A DNA stretch of 64,000 nt, from contig JAADFU010000002.1 of the NCBI GenBank assembly GCA_013152715.1, forward strand, positions 1-64,000, in the 5' to 3' direction. Of the stretch, positions 1 to 64,000 are shown one piece after another (within the stretch, counting starts at the first letter, position 1; the number at the start of each line of letters is the position of its first letter). Below the pieces are notes generated by a model. That model had not been told where the DNA came from. It was given only the letters and a program-made list of their open reading frames with translations, and did not search any database. The DNA is from Calditrichota bacterium (GTDB lineage Bacteria > Zhuqueibacterota > Zhuqueibacteria > Thermofontimicrobiales > Thermofontimicrobiaceae). A program made the translations under genes and the position numbers.

Positions 1-3000
1 CCTGCCGTTTGCGGCGTTTTTGGCTCGAAAATTACTGAAGAACCAGTGTTCGGCGAGATCGGATCCAGCGTGCCGGTAACGCCCCAGGTAGCAAAAACAT
101 CATGGGAATAATTATCATAATTGTCAAACCCGGCCGCGTACAGCGTGAGTTTATCTTTTGAGGTCAGAGATGTGGCGCCGATTTCCTGACCGGTACCGCC
201 GGCGGCATCCATTATTTTCAAATAAGAAACCTGCGCTGCATTGACATTAAAATAATTAGACTGCCCGAATTTGCCCAATTGCGTCGCGCGAATGTAAACA
301 TTTTGTCTCTTTTTAGTAATGGTGATTTGTCCGGCCCATTCCCCATTGATGAAATTAGTGGTTGCCGAGGGACTGATCGTACCGGTGTTGTCCGTCAAAG
401 AGACAGTGGAAAAGAAAGACGTCACCGTATTTTCCATGGAATCTTTAGCGGCAATCGTCACCGAGAAAGGTTGACCAGCGATTTGCGGGGAAAAAATTTC
501 AGACAATGCAAAATGATCAAGCGCGCCCGGAAGCACATTGAACAAATTCGACTCGCCTGATTTTCCTATTCCAGACGCAAATATGCGGTTGTAAGAATAT
601 GTTTTCGTAATTTTGACGGTGCCGCTCCAAATGCCGTTGGAGAAAGCAGTCGTCGTGGCCGGCGTAATTGTGCCGGTCAAATCTGTCAGCGAAACGGTGC
701 CGGTAAACGTGGGCACAAGATTTCCTGTTCCGTCAATTGCAGAAATTGTAACGGAAATGGGCACGCCCGCCGTCTGCGACGTGCCGATCACTGAAAACTC
801 AAAATGATCCACGGTTCCGGCTTCGACGTCAAACACGTTGGAAATGCCGGATTCTGTGCCATTGGTTTTTACCACAGAAATGCGATTGTTATTTTGCGCC
901 TGACTGACGACGACATTTCCCGACCATGTTCCGTTCCCAAAATTTCCGCTCCTCGTCGGAGACACACTTCCGGAAATATCAGAAATATCCACCGTTCCCG
1001 TAAAAGCATCGACAACATTTTCGTACAAATCCCTCGCCGAAACCGAAAGCAAAAATGGCACTCCCGCGAACTGGTCTTCGAGGGGAGCAATTGTGAAATG
1101 ATCCAGCGCTCCCGACTGAACGTTGAAATCATTGGAAACGCCCTGTTTCCCGCTGCCGGTTGCTGTAATGCTCACGTCATTCTGCTTTTTTGTAATGGAA
1201 ACGTTTCCCGTCCAGACGCCGGCAGTGAAATTCCCCGTCGTAATCGGAGAAAGGGTTCCTGTGTTGTCCGATAAATTTACCGAAGAAGTGTAGTTCAAAA
1301 CAGTATTTTCGTAAACATCTTTTGCAGTAATGGTAAGCGAAAAAGCGGTTCCTGCCACCTGCGGCGATCCGATGCTGCTCAGTTCAAAATGATCCAGAGA
1401 ATTGGGATTGACATCGAAAGCGTTGGAAAATCCGGATTCACCCAGCGCCGTTACCGTGATTTTGTCGGAAACATAGTAGCCGGTGATTGTGACCTGTCCC
1501 GTCCAGACGCCGTTCACGAAATTTCCCGTGGTCTGCGGGGAAATTGTTCCGCTCAGATCGGACAGATTTGCCACACCGTTAAAATTTGTTACCGTATTCA
1601 AATCCGCATCTTTGGCGGTAATGGTGACAGAAAAAGGAACACCGGCAGTTTTCGGCGAGCTGATTGTGCTCACCACAAAAGTATCAACCCGGGAAGAAAT
1701 GACGTCGAACGAATTCGACTGTCCGGTTTCGGTGCCATTGGTTCGCGTCACGGTGATGACATCGCCGCTGTTGGCCTGACGAATCATCACATTTCCCGAC
1801 CACACACCGCTGATGAAATTATTGCTAATCTGCGGCTCGATGGTTCCGGAATTGTCGGAAATGTCGACAGTGCCGGTGAATTGTGTGGCAATGTTGGCAA
1901 AATTATCCCGCGCTGTTACGGTAACCAAAAAAGATTTCCCTGCCTGCTGAGTACTCACGGGATCCAGATCAAAACTCGCCAAGGCGCCTGGATTGACATT
2001 AAAATAATTAGAAATTCCTTGCTTACCGTTGTAAGCCGCTGTAATGCGCACATCGTTTTGCGCCTTGGTAATGGTCACATTTCCGGTCCAGCTTCCGGCG
2101 CTGAAGTTTCCCGTTGTCGCCGGAGTTAACGTGCCGCTATTGTCAGACAAATTTGCTGCATGTGTGAAAGAGGTGATTTTATTTTCATACGCGTCACGGG
2201 CAGTAATGGTAATCGAAAACGCTGTTCCGGCTATTTGCGGTGAATTGACCGGCTGAATTTCAAAATGATCCAGCGCATTGGGAGCGACGTTGAAATAATT
2301 GGAAACACCGGACTCGCCCAGCGCATTCACAAAAATCTGATTTGAACTGTATGATTTCGTAATTGAGACCTGGCCTGTCCAGACGCCATTGGAGAAATTT
2401 CCCGTGGTTTGCGGTGAAATTGTCCCGCTCAAATCCGACAAATTTGCCGTGCCGGAAAAACTGGTCACGGTATTCAAATCCGCGTCTTTGGCAGTAATCG
2501 TAATCGTGAATTGCGCCCCTGCCGTCTGCGGAGATGAAATCGAGCTAATGACAAAAGTGTCCACCTGACTGGAAATGACGTCAAACGCATTGGATTGTCC
2601 ATTTTCCGTACCGCTGGTTCGCGTCACAGTAATGACGTCGTTGGAAGTCGCCTGCCGCACCAGCACATTTCCCGACCACATTCCATTGACAAAGTTGCTG
2701 CTCACCTGCGGCTCGATAGTTCCGGTCAAATCCGACAGATCGACGGTTCCCGAAAAATCATCCACCACATTTGCCTGGGCATCGCGCGCCGTGACCGTCA
2801 GCAAAAACGGGACGCCGGCTTTTTGAGTGCCCAAATTTGAAACATCAAAATTGGCTAAAGCGCCAGGGTCAACGTTGAAGTAATTTGACATCCCCTGTTT
2901 TCCGCTGTAGCTGGCAGTAATTCTCACGTCAGTTTGCGATTTCGTTATTGTTACATTCCCTGTCCAGACGCCGGAGCTAAAATTGCCTGACGTCACCGGT

Positions 3001-6000
3001 GAAATCGTGCCGGTATTATCGGACAAACTAACCGGCGCCGTGTGGCTCGTTACGGTGTTTTCGTAAACATCTTTTGCTGTAATTGTGACGGAAAAAGCCG
3101 ATGCGGCTGTTTGCGGAGAATTAATCTCCTGAAAACTGAAATGATCCAGCGTCGCCGGAGAAACAGTGAAAGAATTGGACACTCCCACGTGGCTGGCATC
3201 GGTAGCGGTTATCTTGTCGGCGGAGTAACTTTTGGTGACGACAACATTTCCCGTCCATGTTCCGCCGGAAAAATTCCCGCTGTTCACCGGTGAAATCGTG
3301 CCACTCAAATCCGACAAAGAAACCGTGCCCGTAAATCCTGTGACTAAATTATTTGAAGCGTCCTCAGCGCGGATGGTCACAGAAAATTGCGTTCCGGCGG
3401 TTTGATTACCGATGGTTGAAATTGCAAAATGATCGACATTCACAGAGACCACATCAAAATTGTTGGAATAGCCGTCTTCGCTGCCACCCTGTCTGACAAC
3501 GTGAATCCGGTCGCTGGTGTACGCTTGAGAAATGGTTAAGCTCCCGGACCACTGTCCCTGAGAAAAACTTCCGCTGAGCCCGGGCGAAATCGTTCCCGTT
3601 AAATCTGAGATCGTTACTTTTCCGGTAAATTGTGCGGCAGTGTTGCCGTATTGGTCTTTGGCAATTACTGTAATGGAAAATGGCTCGTTCGTCGTCTGGG
3701 TGCTGACGGCGCTGATTTCAAAATGATCGAGCGTTGTCGGGGAAACAGTAAAATTATTCGACGTTCCGGCTATCGCACTGCGTGTGGCACTAATTTGGTT
3801 GTCAACCTGACTCTGCGTAATGGTAACATTTCCGGTCCACGTTCCCGACGAGAAATTTCCCGTCACAGCCGGTGTCAACGTTCCGGTCAAATCTGACAAA
3901 TTCGCGGTATTGGCAAAACTGGTAACAATGTTTTCGTAAACATCCCTTGCTTCAATGGTCAGGGAAAACGGTTGTCCCGCTGTCTGGGGGCTGGAGATTG
4001 TCGCAAAAGTGAAATGGTCAATGCTCGCGGATTGCACAGTGAAAGCATTGGACTCGCCCGATTTTCCTGCCCCGGCAACGGAAATTTTATTATTGGAGAA
4101 TGATTTCGTTACCGTCAGATTTCCCGTCCACGCGCCGCCGGAAAAATTTCCCGTAACCGTGGGCGACAGGGTTCCGGTTAAATCGTACAAATTAACAGTC
4201 CCGGTGAAATTCGTCACTGTCTGGTTATTGGCATCCTGAGCCGTGATCGTTACAGAAAATGGCGTCCCGGCAGTCTGCGGCGATGAAATTGCTGAAATTT
4301 GAAAATGATCCACATTTCCCGCGACAACGTCGAACAAGTTCGACGAACCCGTTTGTGTCCCTCCGGAACGCGTAACGGTGATGCGGTCGCTGCTCATCAC
4401 TTGTGTGATCGTTACAGCGCCGCTCCATTGTCCCTGATCAAAATTTCCGCTCGCCGTCGGGCTGATCGTGCCGGTTAAATCGGTGATGTCCACGGTTCCG
4501 CTAAAATCTGTTACGCGGTTGCTGTAAAAATCCAAGCCCGTCACTGTAATTGTGAACGACTCTCCCGCTGCTTGCGTGCCAATTGTGGAAACTGAAAATC
4601 TTTCCAATGGCGCCGGCACAACATTAAAATAGTTGGACGCGCCTTGTTTTCCGCTGCCCGAGGCGGTAATTCTCACGTCAGTCTGACTTTTGGTGATACT
4701 CACGTTTCCTGTCCAGACGCCATTGCTAAAATTCCCGGTTGTTACCGGCGAAATTGTCCCCGTATTGTCGAATAAATTCACCGGCGTCGTGTAAGTATCC
4801 ACTAAATTGCCGTAAGTGTCGCGCGCGCGAATTGTAATCGAAAATGGCGTGCCTGCAATTTGAGGGCTTCCGATGGAGCTGATTTCAAAATAATCCAGCG
4901 CTGCGGCGTCAACATCAAAATTGTTTGAAGTTCCGGTTTTGTTGCCGCTGGTGGCCGTGATGCGATTAGATGGTTGGCTCTGCGTAATGGTCACGGTTCC
5001 CGACCAGACGCCGCCGGAAAAATTTCCCGTTACACCGGGATTTACCGTACCCGTTAAATCCGACAAACCAGCAGTACCGCTAAAACTACTTACCGTGTTA
5101 TTGTTGGCGTCCATCGCGGTGATTGTGATGCTAAATCCCAGACCTGCTGTTTGCGGAGAGGCGATCGAATTAAACGCAAAATGATCCAGCGGCCCGGGCT
5201 GCACATTGAAAGCATTCGACTGACCGGACTCGACTTGAGTAGATGTGCGCACTACAGTAATTTTGTCCCCCGACTGCGTGGTTGCAATGGTTACATCGCC
5301 AGTCCAAATTCCCTGTGAAAAATTGCCGCTCACCGTGGGAGAAATTGTTCCGGTTAAATCGGAAATATCAGCCGTCTCGGTGAAATTCTCCACCGTATTT
5401 CCGTACTGATCCTGAGCCGTCACTTGAATTGAAAACGGCGCGCCGGCGGTTTGGTTGGCGATAGTGGAAATGGAAAAATTTGCCAGCGCCGCCGACTGCA
5501 TGTTGAATAAATTTGACGAACTAACAATCGCGCCATAAGTAGCAATAATTGCCACATCTTTTCTCGCCTGAGTCATGGAAACATTTCCCGTCCACTGACC
5601 GGCGACAAAATTTCCCGTAACTGTGGGCGAAATTGTGCCAGTGCTGTCAGACAGATTCACGATGTCAGTGAAATCTGTTACCTGATTTCCCTGCGCATCA
5701 GCGGCGGTGATGGTTACAGAAAAAGCGGCTCCGGCGGTTTGCGGGCTGGAAATTGTCTGAAAAGTAAAATGATCCAGACTCCCGGCATTGACGTTGAAAT
5801 TGTTCGATGTTCCGGCGATATTCTGATACGTTGCAGTAATGTTGTCGTTTTGGTAGCTCTGATTAATCACGACGGTGCCGCTCCAGACGCCTGACGAGAA
5901 ACTTGTCGTCGTGGTTGGCGACAGCGTGGCGCTTAAATCCGAAAGAGTTACTGTATTGGAGAAAGTTTCGACCGTGTTACCGTAATTGTCCACAGCAGTA

Positions 6001-6563
6001 ATTGTAATCGCAAAACCAGCACCGGCAGTCTGATTACCGATAGGCGCAAAATTGAACGTCGCCAGCGAGCCATGTGTGACAGTGAAATTCGCTGAAGTTC
6101 CGGAATCTATTTGTGTGTCATCGGAAAGGCGGGTTTCCATTTGCACTTGGTAAGTCGTAGCGGCAGTCTGATGATTTCCGACAACGGCAACTTTTAAACC
6201 GACGGCAGTGTTTCCCGCAATGACTGAACCGGTGCCGTCTCTCGTAACAAAAATTGTATCACCGGACACCGTTGTGGTCAAACCGCCATCCAGTACGCCC
6301 AAGTCTGTTGATTGCGCCAGCTCAGCGCTGGTCAAATCAAATCCCGCGGGAAAAATGATCACAACTTTTCCGTCCGCAGGAATTCCCACGTCCACACCGT
6401 TGCCGGTGGCAGAAGTTGTGAAACCAAAAGTGTAAATTGTCGGCGCACCGGCGGCGTTATTGCTGGGAGTAACAGTCACCGAAGTGAGTTGCCCTGCCAG
6501 CGTCATTTTTGCAAAAACAACTATCAAAAAGATTGCTAACGAAAATATTCTTCGCCCGTTCAT
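1..6563 (-). CDS. Giant secreted Ig-like repeat protein (partial, C-terminus off the left edge)
   Basis: The reading frame is open from an ATG at 6563 to the window edge, about 2187 codons. GAGGG lies 5 nt upstream of this ATG; an in-frame ATG at 6575 is an alternative. A hydrophobic signal peptide (about residues 1-23) is followed by a ~140-residue N-domain containing IPADGK and FPAGF. Then come about 20 Ig-like repeats of ~97 residues from residue ~165. Each reads roughly LDHF, then I-x-x-PQTAG, then D-x-x-GN, LSDLTGT, NF-x-x-G-x-WTG and G-x-SN-x-F. The last ~75 visible residues start a different domain with a YAAGFD motif, also found in the paralogue at 59216. I checked the frame at about 18 repeat junctions and all agree, so no frameshift is apparent. 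The likely role is an extracellular fibre or adhesin; this is inferred from architecture only, and no catalytic motif was seen. Confidence 0.9.
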   Translation of the reverse strand, partial: MNGRRIFSLAIFLIVVFAKMTLAGQLTSVTVTPSNNAAGAPTIYTFGFTTSATGNGVDVGIPADGKVVIIFPAGFDLTSAELAQSTDLGVLDGGLTTTVSGDTIFVTRDGTGSVIAGNTAVGLKVAVVGNHQTAATTYQVQMETRLSDDTQIDSGTSANFTVTHGSLATFNFAPIGNQTAGAGFAITITAVDNYGNTVETFSNTVTLSDLSATLSPTTTTSFSSGVWSGTVVINQSYQNDNITATYQNIAGTSNNFNVNAGSLDHFTFQTISSPQTAGAAFSVTITAADAQGNQVTDFTDIVNLSDSTGTISPTVTGNFVAGQWTGNVSMTQARKDVAIIATYGAIVSSSNLFNMQSAALANFSISTIANQTAGAPFSIQVTAQDQYGNTVENFTETADISDLTGTISPTVSGNFSQGIWTGDVTIATTQSGDKITVVRTSTQVESGQSNAFNVQPGPLDHFAFNSIASPQTAGLGFSITITAMDANNNTVSSFSGTAGLSDLTGTVNPGVTGNFSGGVWSGTVTITQSQPSNRITATSGNKTGTSNNFDVDAAALDYFEISSIGSPQIAGTPFSITIRARDTYGNLVDTYTTPVNLFDNTGTISPVTTGNFSNGVWTGNVSITKSQTDVRITASGSGKQGASNYFNVVPAPLERFSVSTIGTQAAGESFTITVTGLDFYSNRVTDFSGTVDITDLTGTISPTASGNFDQGQWSGAVTITQVMSSDRITVTRSGGTQTGSSNLFDVVAGNVDHFQISAISSPQTAGTPFSVTITAQDANNQTVTNFTGTVNLYDLTGTLSPTVTGNFSGGAWTGNLTVTKSFSNNKISVAGAGKSGESNAFTVQSASIDHFTFATISSPQTAGQPFSLTIEARDVYENIVTSFANTANLSDLTGTLTPAVTGNFSSGTWTGNVTITQSQVDNQISATRSAIAGTSNNFTVSPTTLDHFEISAVSTQTTNEPFSITVIAKDQYGNTAAQFTGKVTISDLTGTISPGLSGSFSQGQWSGSLTISQAYTSDRIHVVRQGGSEDGYSNNFDVVSVNVDHFAISTIGNQTAGTQFSVTIRAEDASNNLVTGFTGTVSLSDLSGTISPVNSGNFSGGTWTGNVVVTKSYSADKITATDASHVGVSNSFTVSPATLDHFSFQEINSPQTAASAFSVTITAKDVYENTVTSHTAPVSLSDNTGTISPVTSGNFSSGVWTGNVTITKSQTDVRITASYSGKQGMSNYFNVDPGALANFDVSNLGTQKAGVPFLLTVTARDAQANVVDDFSGTVDLSDLTGTIEPQVSSNFVNGMWSGNVLVRQATSNDVITVTRTSGTENGQSNAFDVISSQVDTFVISSISSPQTAGAQFTITITAKDADLNTVTSFSGTANLSDLSGTISPQTTGNFSNGVWTGQVSITKSYSSNQIFVNALGESGVSNYFNVAPNALDHFEIQPVNSPQIAGTAFSITITARDAYENKITSFTHAANLSDNSGTLTPATTGNFSAGSWTGNVTITKAQNDVRITAAYNGKQGISNYFNVNPGALASFDLDPVSTQQAGKSFLVTVTARDNFANIATQFTGTVDISDNSGTIEPQISNNFISGVWSGNVMIRQANSGDVITVTRTNGTETGQSNSFDVISSRVDTFVVSTISSPKTAGVPFSVTITAKDADLNTVTNFNGVANLSDLSGTISPQTTGNFVNGVWTGQVTITGYYVSDKITVTALGESGFSNAFDVNPNSLDHFELSSIGSPQVAGTAFSLTITAKDVYENTVLNYTSSVNLSDNTGTLSPITTGNFTAGVWTGNVSITKKQNDVSITATGSGKQGVSNDFNVQSGALDHFTIAPLEDQFAGVPFLLSVSARDLYENVVDAFTGTVDISDISGSVSPTRSGNFGNGTWSGNVVVSQAQNNNRISVVKTNGTESGISNVFDVEAGTVDHFEFSVIGTSQTAGVPISVTISAIDGTGNLVPTFTGTVSLTDLTGTITPATTTAFSNGIWSGTVKITKTYSYNRIFASGIGKSGESNLFNVLPGALDHFALSEIFSPQIAGQPFSVTIAAKDSMENTVTSFFSTVSLTDNTGTISPSATTNFINGEWAGQITITKKRQNVYIRATQLGKFGQSNYFNVNAAQVSYLKIMDAAGGTGQEIGATSLTSKDKLTLYAAGFDNYDNYSHDVFATWGVTGTLDPISPNTGSSVIFEPKTPQTA
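510..5766 (-). repeat. Higher-order tandem repeat: six 876-nt units of three Ig-like domains
   Basis: The codon for the F of LDHF-like motifs falls (plus coordinates) at 510, 1386, 2262, 3138, 4011, 4887 and 5766 for one domain type. A second type falls at 801, 2553, 3426, 4302 and 5178, and a third at 1095, 2847, 3720 and 5475. The spacing within a type is 873-879 nt, almost always 876. The second type carries a longer loop just before the next domain (TRT-x-GTE-x-G-x-SN); the third carries DVRITA and GKQG-x-SNYFNV. So the array grew by duplication of a 292-residue, three-domain unit. Copies near 1389 and 2265 look about three-quarters identical by eye; copies nearer the N-terminus have drifted more. 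Confidence 0.85.
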
Positions 6564-6937
6564 GTATGCCCTCATCTATGTTCATATTTTCATTTTCGGA
6601 AAGAGTTGGCTGAAGTTCATGGGTGTGAAATGGATTAGTCTGTGCCAGGATGCAATTTTTTCTCGTTGGGTGCCATCTCTAAATTTTTCTAAAGCTTAAT
6701 TCAATTTTGTTACAAAAAGTATGCCTTTTTCGCGCCACCCCGAGAATTTATGTTAATTGTCTAATTTTTAAAAGCTAAACGTAGCGCCCAAATTAACAAC
6801 CTGTAACTTTTAGCCAGCGCCATCTGTGCAAAGCTGGAACAGTTGAGCGACTTTCGGGCGATTCTGATCATCTGCGCGCCTCAGATAAATTTCTTAAAAA
6901 ACAAATATTTTGCCGTGCGCTAAATCACGTTTTCCGG
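6564..6937. other. Intergenic region between yjbQ and the giant repeat gene
   Basis: These ~370 nt separate the end of the envelope operon from the start of the giant gene, both on the minus strand. I see an AT-rich stretch around 6660-6780 that could hold the giant gene's promoter, but no convincing -35/-10 pair. A weak GCCG/CGGC hairpin followed by T-rich sequence lies just downstream of the yjbQ stop on the minus strand and could be a poor terminator. I do not recognise a riboswitch or small RNA. Confidence 0.4.
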
Positions 6938-7336
6938 CTAAATTATCTTAATCCAGACGCGTCTGCTCCGCGGTCCGTCAAATTCGCAGAAAAATACCGA
7001 TTGCCAGGTGCCCAATTTTGCTCTGCCATTTTCCACAATCACTGTCTCGGAGCAACCCACAAGACTCGATTTAATGTGCGCCGCGGAATTTCCTTCGCTG
7101 TGATGATAGCCGTCGCTGAGGGGAATCACTTTGTTGATTTCAAACAGAAAATCGCGCACCACGCTCGGGTCAGCGCCTTCGTTGATGGTAACCGCCGCTG
7201 TGGTGTGCGGAATAAAAATTTCACAAATCCCGTCTTTGATGCCGCTTTCCTCGATAGCGCGATTCACCAGATGATCAATTTTCACCAGTTCGGTTTGAGA
7301 ATTCGTTCTTACGTTAAATTCAAACATCCTGTCCAT
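6938..7336 (-). CDS. yjbQ: YjbQ / UPF0047 family protein
   Basis: This 132-residue protein has the full set of UPF0047 (COG0432) hallmarks: PHTTAAVTINEG near residue 45, H and GNSAAHIKSSLVG near residues 79-92, LGTWQ near 109, and the terminal DGPRSRRVWIKI. The family is annotated as a secondary thiamine-phosphate synthase on the basis of weak activity; its true role is unsettled. The start at 7336 has AGAGG eight bases upstream and its ATG overlaps the previous gene's stop by one base (TAATG), implying translational coupling. A second in-frame ATG lies three codons on. It is the last gene of the minus-strand envelope operon. Confidence 0.92.
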   Translation of the reverse strand: MDRMFEFNVRTNSQTELVKIDHLVNRAIEESGIKDGICEIFIPHTTAAVTINEGADPSVVRDFLFEINKVIPLSDGYHHSEGNSAAHIKSSLVGCSETVIVENGRAKLGTWQSVFFCEFDGPRSRRVWIKII

Positions 7337-58631: not shown

Positions 58632-59129
58632 ATGTCTCTGAATGAAACATTTAGAACAAATGAGACAAAATTTTTTAAATTTTTCTTGTTGGCGCTCGTT
58701 TTTCTCACAGTGGGAGGCTGGCAATTTGCCCTGGCACAGGATCAAGCGATTCTGTTGCCAAAAGATTCAACCCAAAAAGCAGAGACGATTTATTACCTGA
58801 AATTAGCTTTGAGTAAACCCATTCCGGCGGACGCGGTTTTTATTTTTCAATTTGACGCCGCTTTTGACCTGTCAAACACGGAAATCGCCGGGTCGTCATC
58901 AATTAACGGCGGGTTTGAAATAAAAGTTGACGGGCAAAAATTGACGATCAGCCGCACCGGACTGGGCGAAGAAATTCCCGCAAAAAAGAAAGTGGAATTA
59001 AAATTTGCTCTGGTGAAAAATCCGGATCAGGCGGCGAAAGATTTTCCGGTAGACATTGAAATTCAGGGCGGTGACGTTGGAGTGTTGCTAAAAACGCGCG
59101 TGACTATTTCGATTGAAGCAAAAAAATAA
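58632..59129 (+). CDS. Small secreted protein related to the N-domain of the giant repeat proteins
   Basis: The 165-residue protein has an N-terminal signal peptide (hydrophobic FFLLALVFLTVGGWQFALAQ, cleavage near residue 36). The rest resembles the ~140-residue N-domain of the giant proteins at 6563 and 59216. Common points in order are a YYLKLALSKPIPAD start, a FQFDAAFDL strand, INGGFEIKVDGQKLTISRTG, and E-E-I-PAKKKVELKFALV. The order and spacing of these elements agree with IPADGK, FPAGF, GGF, VTVTRD-x-TG and GVSVAISLA in the giants. No repeats follow. It precedes the second giant gene by 86 nt, suggesting a shared system. Confidence 0.78.
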   Translation: MSLNETFRTNETKFFKFFLLALVFLTVGGWQFALAQDQAILLPKDSTQKAETIYYLKLALSKPIPADAVFIFQFDAAFDLSNTEIAGSSSINGGFEIKVDGQKLTISRTGLGEEIPAKKKVELKFALVKNPDQAAKDFPVDIEIQGGDVGVLLKTRVTISIEAKK

Positions 59130-59215
59130 TTTTTAATAAAACAAACAGACATTAAAAAAAGCATCGGGGGGCGCTCACACGAACTGCTAATCGCTAACTT
59201 TGGAATTTGCATCTG

Positions 59216-62200
59216 ATGAAAATGAGACATCTGTGGGTTAGTTTTATCACAATTGTTGTTTTGGGATTGACGAACGCGGCGTTCGCGACGGGAAATTTGA
59301 GCAGTATCACCGTGGCTGCTTCAGATGATTCTGTCGGCGAAGCGGCAATTTACCGATTTTATTTCACAACAGGCGCGGGAAACGATACAGTTAAGGGCAT
59401 ACCTGCGGACGGAAAAATTGAGTTTTACTTTCCTGCCGGATTTAATGTCTCCGGCGTGGAAGTGGTGTCGTCGCAAGATACCAATTTGACTGGTGGATTT
59501 TTGGTTCCGGAAATAAACGGGCAGATCGTGACGGTGACTCGTGACAGTACAGGAAATGAGGTGGGACAGGGAGTCTCGGTGGCGATCAGTCTGGCGATGG
59601 TCGGAAATGCGACCGGTGCCGGCAGTTATAATTTTGCTTTCGTGACCAAAACTGCGGCAGGAGATTCTATTGATTCCGGCGTTTATAACGGATTTGTGCT
59701 GACGCCGGCAGGTCTGGAGCATTTTCAAGTCGACGTTTCCGGAAATGCTACGGCCGGACAGGATTATTCGATTATAATTTCTGCGAGAGATGCGTACGAC
59801 AACTTGGTAACATCGCACACGGCATCTGTTTCGCTGCTTGACGACACAGGAACTATTTCGCCGACAGAAAGCGGAGCTTTTGTTGGCGGCAGTGTAACTT
59901 TGAATGTGACATTCCAGAAAGCAATGACAGCGAACAAAATAACAGTAACCTACAACAACAAGAGCGGACAATCGGCTGATTTTGATGTTTTGCCGGCGGC
60001 GCTCTACCATTTTGTTTTTGATGATATTTCCAGCCCGAAAATTGCCGGAACACCATTTTCGGTGAACATTACAGCGTATGATCAATTTGAAAATCAAGTA
60101 ACCACTTTCAATGATAAAGTGCAGCTTACCGATTTGTCTGGTTCACTGGATATTGAATCAGCAAATTTTTCCAGCGGACAATTGTTAAACCAGAGCGTTA
60201 CAATTACCAGTAGCCAGACAGACAATTACATTACGGCGACGCACAGCGCTTCAGGAAAATCCGGTCAATCGAATTTATTCAATGTCAATGCCGGCAATTT
60301 GGCCAAATTTTATATCAATCCTATTGCTTCGCCGCAGACCGCTGGGGAATATTTTTCCATTACCATTGTGGCGCAAGACAATTGGGATAATACGGTTACG
60401 GATTTTGCGAGTAAAGTTTCGATCAGCGATTTGAGCGGTACGATTACGCCAGTAGAAAGCGCCAACTTCATTGGCGGACAATGGACGGGAAACGTGAAGG
60501 TTCGCTCTGCCTATGCCAATGATCAAATTACAGTGACAAAATTTGCCGGCAGCGAAAATGGAACATCTACTGTTTTTGACGTGGCAGCCGGAGCCCTGGA
60601 CCATTTTTCAATCAGCGCCATTGCAACACCTCAACAAGCTGGACAGGCTTTCGGCGTAACTATTCAGGCGTTGGATACGGAAAATAATCTGGTCGAATCT
60701 TTCACCGGAAAAGTGGATGTGGCGGATTTGACTAACACCGTTTCACCGACACAAACAGAAAATTTCACTAACGGTCAATGGTCGGGCACGATTACCATTA
60801 CCAAAGCCATTGCCAGCGATAAATTGTTTGTTTCCGACAGTGAAAAATCCGGCGAGTCGAATTCGTTCGAAGTCGCTGCCGCGGATCTTGACCACTTTAC
60901 TTTTGAGACAATTGGCGCTCAAGAGGCGGGTGTAAATTTTTCCGTTACCGTTCATGCTCACGATGCTTTTGGAAATGTAGTTTCTTCTTTTAATGACGAC
61001 GTGACGCTTTCGGACAAAACAGGGACGCTCTCCCCAACCAGCTTAACTCTGGCCGGGGGAACAGGAAGTGAAAATGTTGCTATTTTTCAATCCGGCCAGG
61101 ACAATTTAATTACGGCGACACATGCAGCGAGCGGAAAAACAGGTAACGCCAATTTTTTTAACGTTGCGCCGTCTGCAGTACATCAAATTGTCATTCGAGA
61201 CAATCCCGGCGGACTGGGCGTTGAAGTGGGCGATTTAAATTTCAACCTCCACGATCAACTTCGGCTTTACGCCGCCGGCTATGATCAATGGGGAAATTAT
61301 GTAAGAGAAGTGACAGCAGATTGGAGCGCCGACGGAAATTTGGATGCGCCGTCACCGGCACTCGGAAATTCAACTTTGTTTCAGGCGGAGACGCCGCTTT
61401 CTTCGGGAAAAATTCGAGCGGACAGCATCGGTCTGGTGGCAGATCTGACGGGTACGTTCACGGTTGCTTCCATTGCCACAATAAAAATTCTCGACCAACC
61501 CGACGGTCTCGGCAATGAAGTCACAGACTTGAACACAACCACAGACGACACGCTCAAGCTATACGCCGCTGGGTTTGACGCAGCGGATCATTTCGTGGGG
61601 ACGGTTGTTGTGGACTGGAGTTCCGACGGCGCCCTGTCTCCTGCCGTAACCGGTTCAGATACCATGTTTGCTTTCGATGCGGATTTGTCCGGCGTTTCCG
61701 GCCATATTTTGGCCGCTTACAATGACTCTTTGCACGCGACGACCGGAACAATTACCGTCAGTCCGGGCGCACCCTACGGTGAAATGGAGCTGCATCCGAA
61801 TCCGGCAATTATCGCCGCGCATCCGGACTCATTTTCCATGATTTTATCGGATAAAATTACCGACAGAGATGGAAATTACGTCGGTGCCGGAAAATATTTT
61901 ATCGTCACCACTACTGCGGGTACGATCACAACGCCTGACGAGAAGCCCGATTTAGACGGACATTGGATTGCGACAAATTCTTACAGTCGCCTCTATTTTC
62001 AATTAAACGGATCGTCCGAAGGCGGCGCCGCGCTTGTTTCTGCTCACAGCGCCGGCGAGGGAAGCGCTTTCGGCGATACCCTGGTGATCATTTCCGGTCT
62101 GGATATTGTTTCCATTGAGGCTGGCGCAGAAAAAGCGACTCAGGGACAGAAAAAAATTCCTGTCAACATGGTGGTGCAAAACAGGGGCACGTTGGACATC

Positions 62201-64000
62201 TCAGTCGATGCCGCGGGCCTGGAATTTTGGGGTCCAGCGCCGACATATTCGCTTTTGACAAATAAATTTACCATTGCCAGAACGGATACAATAAGCAAAA
62301 TTATCGCACAAACGCAAGAGACAATTAGTTTTGAAATTGACGTACTTGCTGACACGCCGGCAGAGCCTATTACCATTGATGGCTACGTCGTTGGGACACT
62401 GAACGGCGAAACTGTTCGCGACGATTCGGCGAGCACGGTCGATCAAATTTTAGTGCAGATCGCCCCCAATTTGATTCTGGAAAATATTTCCGTTTACGTG
62501 GATACCGTCATTCAGGGAACGAGCACCACGGTGAGCGCAACAGTGCGTAATACCGGCGATGCCCCGGCGCTGATTCAGACGGACAGTCTTTTTTTCTGGG
62601 CAGTGGGAAATAATTTCGATGTGACAGATGAATACGGACAAATTTCGTTTCCGTCAAATGTGGAGAAAATTGACGGCCATTCAGTTGCAACGTTAAATTA
62701 CACTGTCGCTGCCGGGACAAATGCCACAATTGACACGATTGCTCTGTCCGGCGAGATTGTCGCCACAGATGAAAATAGTGGCGATGCGGTCAATTTCCAG
62801 TCTTTCGAGCCGGAATATGACGGCTGGTGGGTGCGACAGGCATCTGACGTGGAAATCGTTGATTTCAAAGCAAGCCAATTCACTGTTACGCGAGGTCAGA
62901 CAGAAGACTGGTTTTTGCAAATGGTCGTGGAGAATCGCGGCGGAATTGATTTGCTGCTGGATAGTGTGGTGGTAAATTTTACCTTGGGAGGCCAGGCGAT
63001 TTCCGATGAATATCGCGTGAGCAAACCGGTTTCTTTTCTGCACAGCGGAGATGACACTTTGCGCACCGGAGCGACGGACACTTTGACTGTTACCGTTGAT
63101 ACTACCGGTACATCGCTGGGAATTGTGACTGTCGAAGGTACAGTTTTCCTGAATGACAAAATCAGCGGACAAATTGTCAAATCGACGGCGACGGGAGTGA
63201 CGGTTCAATCTGAAGCGGAAATATCGATCAATTTTATTCATCTGTCGCAGAATGAGGTTACTGTCGGGCAAACGCAGCCGTGGACGATTACCCTGGGCAT
63301 CACCAACAACGGCGGCGGCGATATTGCGATGGATTCGACTCGGCTGGGCGAGTTTGTTGCTTTTGGTAATGATACAAATTATCGCGTAACTGCACCGGTG
63401 CACTTTGCCGGTTCCGCAGATTTTGTGCTCGGAAGCAGCGATTCGGATAGTTTGATTTTTACGGTGGACACAACGGGGACCAAACCCGGAACGCGCAATG
63501 TTTTTGCCCATGTTTTTGCGCGAGAGATTAACAGCCATCGGCTGGTGCAAGCTCTGGATACGACAAAACTAATTGTCGAGTTACCCCCGGCGGTGAAGAT
63601 TTTATCAGTGAAAAACATGGCGGCAAATGCGCCTTTTGTGGATACCGATCGACAATTTCCCGTTTCAGTGATTTTGGAGAATATTGGAGAAGATGCAGCG
63701 CAGAAAGTTTTTCTCTCGTTGACGAGCGACAGTGTTTCAACCGTGCTCGTTCCAAATCAGACAGCGCAACGAATAAAATCCGGCGAACGCGACACTGTTA
63801 ATTTTGATGTGCGGGCATTTTCCGGGAAAATTGTTGATGAAATTTTTACCGCGACGATTGATTCCTTGGTAGCTGAAAATACGCCGGAAAAAGACAAGGC
63901 GACGATTTTACCGGCGGACGACTCCACAGCCGTGGCGACAGTGCAACTACCGGCTATTGCAAAAGTGGAAAGTGTTTATGTTTCCGCCGACACGGTGAAG
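59216..64000 (+). CDS. Second giant secreted repeat protein (partial, C-terminus off the right edge)
   Basis: The frame is open from ATG 59216 to the window edge, exactly 1595 codons. A signal peptide (about 1-25, ending AAFA) is followed by the shared N-domain (IPADGK, FPAGF, VTVTRD). Five Ig-like repeats run from about residue 166 to 655, with LDHF-type starts near 166, 262, 361, 461 and 558. Two YAAG domains (about 655-755 and 755-853; DQLRLYAAGYD, DTLKLYAAGFD) come next, then an invasin-like linker. Finally, CARDB-like repeats start near 960, 1086, 1212, 1337, 1460 and 1582. It is paralogous to the protein at 6563. A long surface adhesin or scaffold is inferred; a C-terminal sorting domain would lie outside the window. 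Confidence 0.9.
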   Translation, partial: MKMRHLWVSFITIVVLGLTNAAFATGNLSSITVAASDDSVGEAAIYRFYFTTGAGNDTVKGIPADGKIEFYFPAGFNVSGVEVVSSQDTNLTGGFLVPEINGQIVTVTRDSTGNEVGQGVSVAISLAMVGNATGAGSYNFAFVTKTAAGDSIDSGVYNGFVLTPAGLEHFQVDVSGNATAGQDYSIIISARDAYDNLVTSHTASVSLLDDTGTISPTESGAFVGGSVTLNVTFQKAMTANKITVTYNNKSGQSADFDVLPAALYHFVFDDISSPKIAGTPFSVNITAYDQFENQVTTFNDKVQLTDLSGSLDIESANFSSGQLLNQSVTITSSQTDNYITATHSASGKSGQSNLFNVNAGNLAKFYINPIASPQTAGEYFSITIVAQDNWDNTVTDFASKVSISDLSGTITPVESANFIGGQWTGNVKVRSAYANDQITVTKFAGSENGTSTVFDVAAGALDHFSISAIATPQQAGQAFGVTIQALDTENNLVESFTGKVDVADLTNTVSPTQTENFTNGQWSGTITITKAIASDKLFVSDSEKSGESNSFEVAAADLDHFTFETIGAQEAGVNFSVTVHAHDAFGNVVSSFNDDVTLSDKTGTLSPTSLTLAGGTGSENVAIFQSGQDNLITATHAASGKTGNANFFNVAPSAVHQIVIRDNPGGLGVEVGDLNFNLHDQLRLYAAGYDQWGNYVREVTADWSADGNLDAPSPALGNSTLFQAETPLSSGKIRADSIGLVADLTGTFTVASIATIKILDQPDGLGNEVTDLNTTTDDTLKLYAAGFDAADHFVGTVVVDWSSDGALSPAVTGSDTMFAFDADLSGVSGHILAAYNDSLHATTGTITVSPGAPYGEMELHPNPAIIAAHPDSFSMILSDKITDRDGNYVGAGKYFIVTTTAGTITTPDEKPDLDGHWIATNSYSRLYFQLNGSSEGGAALVSAHSAGEGSAFGDTLVIISGLDIVSIEAGAEKATQGQKKIPVNMVVQNRGTLDISVDAAGLEFWGPAPTYSLLTNKFTIARTDTISKIIAQTQETISFEIDVLADTPAEPITIDGYVVGTLNGETVRDDSASTVDQILVQIAPNLILENISVYVDTVIQGTSTTVSATVRNTGDAPALIQTDSLFFWAVGNNFDVTDEYGQISFPSNVEKIDGHSVATLNYTVAAGTNATIDTIALSGEIVATDENSGDAVNFQSFEPEYDGWWVRQASDVEIVDFKASQFTVTRGQTEDWFLQMVVENRGGIDLLLDSVVVNFTLGGQAISDEYRVSKPVSFLHSGDDTLRTGATDTLTVTVDTTGTSLGIVTVEGTVFLNDKISGQIVKSTATGVTVQSEAEISINFIHLSQNEVTVGQTQPWTITLGITNNGGGDIAMDSTRLGEFVAFGNDTNYRVTAPVHFAGSADFVLGSSDSDSLIFTVDTTGTKPGTRNVFAHVFAREINSHRLVQALDTTKLIVELPPAVKILSVKNMAANAPFVDTDRQFPVSVILENIGEDAAQKVFLSLTSDSVSTVLVPNQTAQRIKSGERDTVNFDVRAFSGKIVDEIFTATIDSLVAENTPEKDKATILPADDSTAVATVQLPAIAKVESVYVSADTVK

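Follow-up and report, generated by a model that had tools for sequence, protein, structure and literature searches.

A phylum-wide three-domain super-repeat in a giant, probably type IX-secreted Ig-like protein of KSB1 bacteria

The window analysed here is a stretch of 64,000 nucleotides, corresponding to positions 1-64000 of contig C2 in a draft genome of 4.15 Mb. Its beginning is occupied, on the minus strand, by the gene of a giant secreted protein of 2191 aa (3..6575, from the ORF list), which starts with the ATG at 6575 and runs down to position 3, where it is cut by the end of the contig (window base 1) and not by a stop codon, so that the C-terminus is missing. By inspection of the sequence, the protein opens with a signal-peptide-like N-terminus (6504..6575; MRAYMNGRRIFSLAIFLIVVFAKM), whose hydrophobic run extends into TLAG. 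This is followed by an N-terminal beta-sandwich domain (6066..6503), delimited by its structure model and its relatives, which ends at residue 170 and is found in giants, in short paralogues and in relatives throughout the phylum. The model of this domain (pLDDT 90.4, pTM 0.86) shows weak fold similarity to cohesins, pilins and adhesins, with a TM of about 0.5. Just upstream of the giant lies a gene named by eye as YjbQ-like (6938-7336, minus strand), which is also found there in G001 and G009, and the downstream genes vary by lineage.

Residues 171-2115 of the giant (window 231-6065) form an array of 20 Ig-like repeats (R1 to R20) of 96-99 aa each. According to the repeat alignment, the array is made up of six triplets, all on the minus strand: R1, R2 and R3, of types A, B and C, respectively (5190..6065), R4-R6 (4314..5189), R7-R9 (3438..4313), R10-R12 (2565..3437), R13-R15 (1689..2564), and R16-R18 (813..1688). 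They are followed by an incomplete terminal unit A-B (R19 and R20, 231..812), assigned by repeat alignment and type profiles, and the order of types in the whole array is (ABC)6-AB. The initial annotation had described a super-repeat of six cycles at 510-5766 inside a giant secreted protein; the super-repeat is real and its six cycles are all there, with an extent that is slightly wider (231-6065). The last part of the sequence (3..230, minus strand) encodes the beginning of another kind of domain (bacterial Ig-like), which is interrupted where the contig ends. The Big-like domain found after the triplet array forms long arrays in L055 (G024:C43) and L056 (G044:C269), with a spacing of ~600 nt. 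A third protein of the same genome (L009:3816-5552, plus strand), also cut by a contig end, holds a single C-like repeat and then a domain that by eye is of the lamin-tail type.

A second locus in the window encodes a short paralogue of 2699 aa (59207..64000, plus strand, continuing to about C2:67306), with the same N-domain, five repeats reading A-B-C-A-B, and an FlgD/T9SS-like C-terminal tail. Just upstream of it is a small secreted protein of 165 aa related to the N-domain (58632..59129, plus strand), and directly downstream a PorV/PorQ-family protein (144 bits against a cutoff of 90). The three form an operon-like set (L008; 58632-64000, plus strand, and on to about C2:69257) consisting of the N-domain-only protein, the paralogue, and the PorV/PorQ-family protein, which carries TPRs. 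In G033, a member of family f10, it is the giant itself, with 14 repeats, that is linked to PorV, and therefore the giant array is found at different loci in different lineages.

The period of the array was established by several kinds of comparison. Self-identity of the protein reaches 0.41 at a lag of 292 residues, whereas it is only 0.25 at lag 97, over a background of 0.083 (sd 0.024), in agreement with the earlier proposal that this is not a plain 97-residue repeat. At the DNA level the peak lies at lag 876 (0.48 vs 0.25). Repeats of the same type start every 291-293 aa, equivalent to 873-879 nt and mostly 876, exactly as had been claimed for three recurring types. Mean identity between repeats situated 3, 6, 9 and 12 positions apart is 0.58, 0.55, 0.55 and 0.53, whereas every other offset up to 14 gives 0.44-0.47 (in summary, 0.55 for every third repeat vs 0.46), meaning that repeats are more alike at a fixed offset of three (lag 292) than they are to their neighbours. 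The clustering of every third repeat in a domain tree, suggested by the initial annotation as a check, was also observed, as the type label changes only 2 (FastTree) or 4 (IQ-TREE) times in the tree of the 20 repeats vs 9.9 times after shuffling, and none of 1000 shuffles gave a value as low. These results confirm that types A, B and C follow one another in strict rotation along the 20 Ig-like domains.

A different picture was obtained for the distribution of conservation, which had been thought to increase towards the C-terminal side. Identity between adjacent triplets starts at 0.54 (R1-R3), reaches its maximum of 0.70 around R11-R15, and drops to 0.52 at the C-terminal end, with the highest similarity between neighbouring triplets around triplets 4-5. 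This mid-array peak, which rules out a steady rise, was seen in four of five giants compared. In domain repeats in general, growth by duplication of multi-domain blocks is known to occur often in the middle of the array (PMC1553488).

The repeats belong to an Ig-like family that is not covered by Pfam or NCBIfam. Searches with the repeats in Pfam, NCBIfam and PDB sequences retrieved no credible relative, and none of them matched Pfam Big_1 or Invasin_D3 above the gathering score, the sub-threshold Invasin_D3 match being located outside the array. The fold was recognized by modelling: the five-domain model of R13-R17 (pLDDT 96.8, pTM 0.70) is all-beta, with Ig-like beta-sandwich domains, and its matches in the PDB include FdeC (4e9l; 18% identity, TMt 0.45), titin I65-I70, and fragment 6 of GhpA.

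Each type exhibits its own signature. Type C is the clearest clade in the 20-repeat tree (98% support) and is distinguished by an A-B turn without its Pro, by an F-G hairpin of greater length (R-T/S-G-G-x-E), and by the residues Val23 and Ile42, positions held by Ile and Leu in A and B. An Asp-Val in the E-F loop marks type B, while type A commonly holds Asn-Asn in the B-C loop, after a conserved Asp. The strongest type-specific columns map mainly to the A-B turn, the E-F loop, the F strand and F-G hairpin, and the linker. A concentration of type-specific residues in loops or interfaces was considered and discarded, as their mean excess information does not differ between strands and loops (p = 0.83), with no loop enrichment. 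In a test of covariation across domain boundaries, the top offset-1 pairs (54-84) lie at 7.8 sd, not clearly above those at offsets 4 and 5 (7.1 and 6.5). Neither the distribution over strands and loops nor the covariation demonstrates interface-based selection for the triplet.

Profiles for A, B and C, built from the window protein alone, were then run on the domains of its relatives. The arrays of G005 and G010 read (ABC)6AB and (ABC)4AB with no error, that of G009 reads (ABC)11AB with one error, and that of G007 (ABC)7AB with two. The array of the congener, KSB1 bacterium 4484_87 (G001), which was the only match in a protein search of genome contigs, is in ABC phase throughout, and short paralogues read ABCAB or near it. 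In a tree of 153 domains, the type label changes five times vs 72 after shuffling, and the types keep their order between species. Within the order, the giants have 20, 20, 23, 35 and 14 repeats (the 20 of the congener being an inferred count, with a contig gap in R2-R4) and the short paralogues have 5, all of them 2 mod 3. The chance of five distinct counts sharing the same residue is by itself ~0.01, and together with the phase this evidence is convincing. Growth by whole triplets, as initially proposed, is supported by these data, with the phase kept across genera and counts within the order differing by multiples of three.

The phase extends further in the phylum, where a triplet query at E <= 1e-25 found matches in 30 of 82 genomes. 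Members of other classes hold nine repeats (G071, G072, G074, G075, and G079), six (G078) or five (G064 and G065), mostly in ABC phase; the tree of these domains shows 4 label changes vs 28.9 shuffled, and the nearest type coincides with the phase in 51 of 61 domains. Exceptions are the irregular start of the G066 array and several first repeats in other classes, which are mistyped. The sister family f10, which belongs to the same class, repeats a similar triplet of its own, in which one domain is longer (about 96, 98, and 102-108 aa). This triplet may descend from ABC or may have originated in parallel; a weak resemblance to C is seen in one of its types. Arrays of this family hold 14 repeats in three genomes and 12 in G052, differing at the N-terminal end, which indicates that array size can also change by steps other than whole threes. 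Another protein family of the same class (L052 in G009, L053 in G015, and L054 in G027) carries a two-domain super-repeat of ~216 aa (121+95); units of two as well as of three domains are therefore produced in this lineage.

Regarding the age of the unit, adjacent triplets of the window protein share 0.52-0.70 protein identity (up to 0.77 in G005), but only 55-67% DNA identity (71% at most in G005), a divergence that makes a collapse of the array in the draft assembly unlikely. Fourfold-site identity between adjacent triplets is about 0.25-0.42, near random and hence saturated, and 16 of 16 comparable repeats correspond one-to-one with those of the congener. Because of both observations, the growth by triplets is considered old, even though lineage-specific blocks are present in the tree, such as R10-R15 of G005. 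Moreover, since the types are kept despite saturated fourfold sites, the differences between them are held by purifying selection and not by recency. These comparisons indicate that the unit is ancient and preserved, and not a recent length switch. Given that purifying selection keeps the types apart at saturated distance, it is plausible that the triplet is a structural unit as well.

The way in which the protein leaves the cell can be approached through its relatives. The complete orthologue of G005 has 4168 aa and ends, like others, in a conserved tail (YPNPF...LNGVY) that resembles type IX secretion system (T9SS) C-terminal domains, with 35.9 bits for PorZ and 29.8 for PorU, as well as Por_Secre_tail. 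In this orthologue the tail scores 22.7 bits for TIGR04183, against a cutoff of 23, and CHU_C, Por_Secre_tail and FlgD_ig fall below the Pfam cutoffs. The genome of the window (G000) encodes a homologue of the translocon component SprA (SprA_N 118.7 bits), which was found in none of 14 control genomes, along with 123 FlgD_ig-like tail matches. According to the orthologue tails, this translocon and the PorV/PorQ-family protein beside the paralogue, the window copy is likely to be secreted by the type IX (Por) system; both the secretion route and the anchoring rest on orthologues because its own C-terminus is missing. A literature search retrieved no paper dealing with both KSB1 and type IX secretion.

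Taking all these data together, the reading that we favor, with a probability of about two in three, is that the repeat array forms the stalk of a fibrillar surface protein that a KSB1 bacterium secretes by the type IX system, and that three domains together constitute its evolutionary unit, whose types are preserved. Its architecture would also suit an adhesive role. Same-type domains, lying three positions from each other, are the most similar partners available, and unequal recombination between them would therefore lengthen and shorten the arrays; changes violating the A-B, B-C or C-A neighbour rule would be purged, so that the three domains would behave as a single block in the construction of a long filament. 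A bolder formulation, which we regard as unlikely, is that three non-equivalent Ig-like domains act as an obligate register across the KSB1 phylum, with lengthening only in ~12 nm steps and type-specific contacts with neighbours or with a periodic partner, in a bacterial version of the logic of titin.

The period could alternatively be a neutral legacy, in which an early block of three diverged domains was duplicated and recombination between domains of the same type has kept the period ever since, with no function of the triplet. Duplication of multi-domain blocks is the usual route for domain repeats (PMC1553488), similarity also peaks mid-array here, and type-specific positions are not concentrated in loops, all of which fit this history. 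However, drift alone would erode the type signatures, which are kept across classes at saturated synonymous distances, and a recombination bias needs a DNA identity higher than that of adjacent triplets; we therefore consider this history somewhat improbable. The triplet could instead serve as a titin-like ruler, giving the register for a repeating partner such as a surface lattice or filament, with A, B and C sites every ~12 nm. The strict phase, the counts in threes and the phylum-wide conservation speak for it, and in titin the super-repeats are matched to the thick filament in a comparable manner (PMC10665226). Nevertheless, the partner is hypothetical and the total length is not fixed, with 14-35 repeats between genera, which makes the ruler very improbable.

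Length variation within populations deserves separate consideration, as phase variation had been raised in the initial annotation. In a phase- or size-variable stalk of the Periscope kind, repeat number would shift within populations, exposing or hiding the tip, and a surface protein with a long tandem array whose repeat counts vary between genera has the appearance of one. The definition of Periscope proteins, however, rests on repeats of high coding identity and on variation within populations (PMC9704523), while adjacent triplets here share 55-67% of their nucleotides, with fourfold sites at about 0.3. Both this saturation and the one-to-one orthology of repeats with the congener (a single congener having been compared) speak against phase variation, and a Periscope-like stalk is scarcely credible.

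In comparison with known systems, the giant shares with other giant Ig-like adhesins, such as A. baumannii BAP, FdeC and the Mobiluncus 51-Ig adhesin, a long secreted array of domains of 80-110 aa, and FdeC is among the closest solved structures to the window repeats. A. baumannii BAP also carries several module types (PMC4647330). In contrast to these adhesins, the domain described here is unrecognised by Pfam and NCBIfam, holds a strict ABC phase across the phylum, and is probably secreted by the type IX system and not by the routes of those families. Aureispira GhpA (PDB 9flw) is likewise a giant multi-domain beta-sandwich protein that matches the five-domain fold (TM 0.34), but the match is confined to the generic fold string (12% identity), and hook assembly has no support here. 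GhpA is a protein of a type IX-secreting lineage. Periscope proteins resemble the giant as surface stalks of tandem beta-sandwich domains; given that its repeats are not near-identical in coding sequence and that repeat number appears stable within the genus, the giant is not a Periscope protein by these features.

It is usual to regard the Ig-like stalks of bacteria as chains of equivalent beads. The three bead types of this protein keep their order across classes at saturated synonymous distance, and sizes change by threes in most lineages, offering a testable case of whether selection on a bacterial surface filament acts on a supra-domain unit or on the single domain, in an Ig-like family outside Pfam and NCBIfam carried by KSB1 bacteria with a type IX translocon. 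Super-repeats themselves are known from the titin A-band (Ig/FnIII) and from nebulin, with its seven-domain super-repeat, where fixed domain types were duplicated as blocks, and the most recent similarity of the titin C-zone is in the middle (PMC10665226, PMC1553488). The one described here is bacterial and phylum-wide. Like titin and nebulin, it consists of related domains that cycle through fixed types and are duplicated as blocks; unlike them, it draws its three domains from a single family and occurs in a secreted protein of bacteria, with neither a known partner periodicity nor a sequence relationship to them, which makes it a natural comparison for the super-repeats of both muscle proteins.
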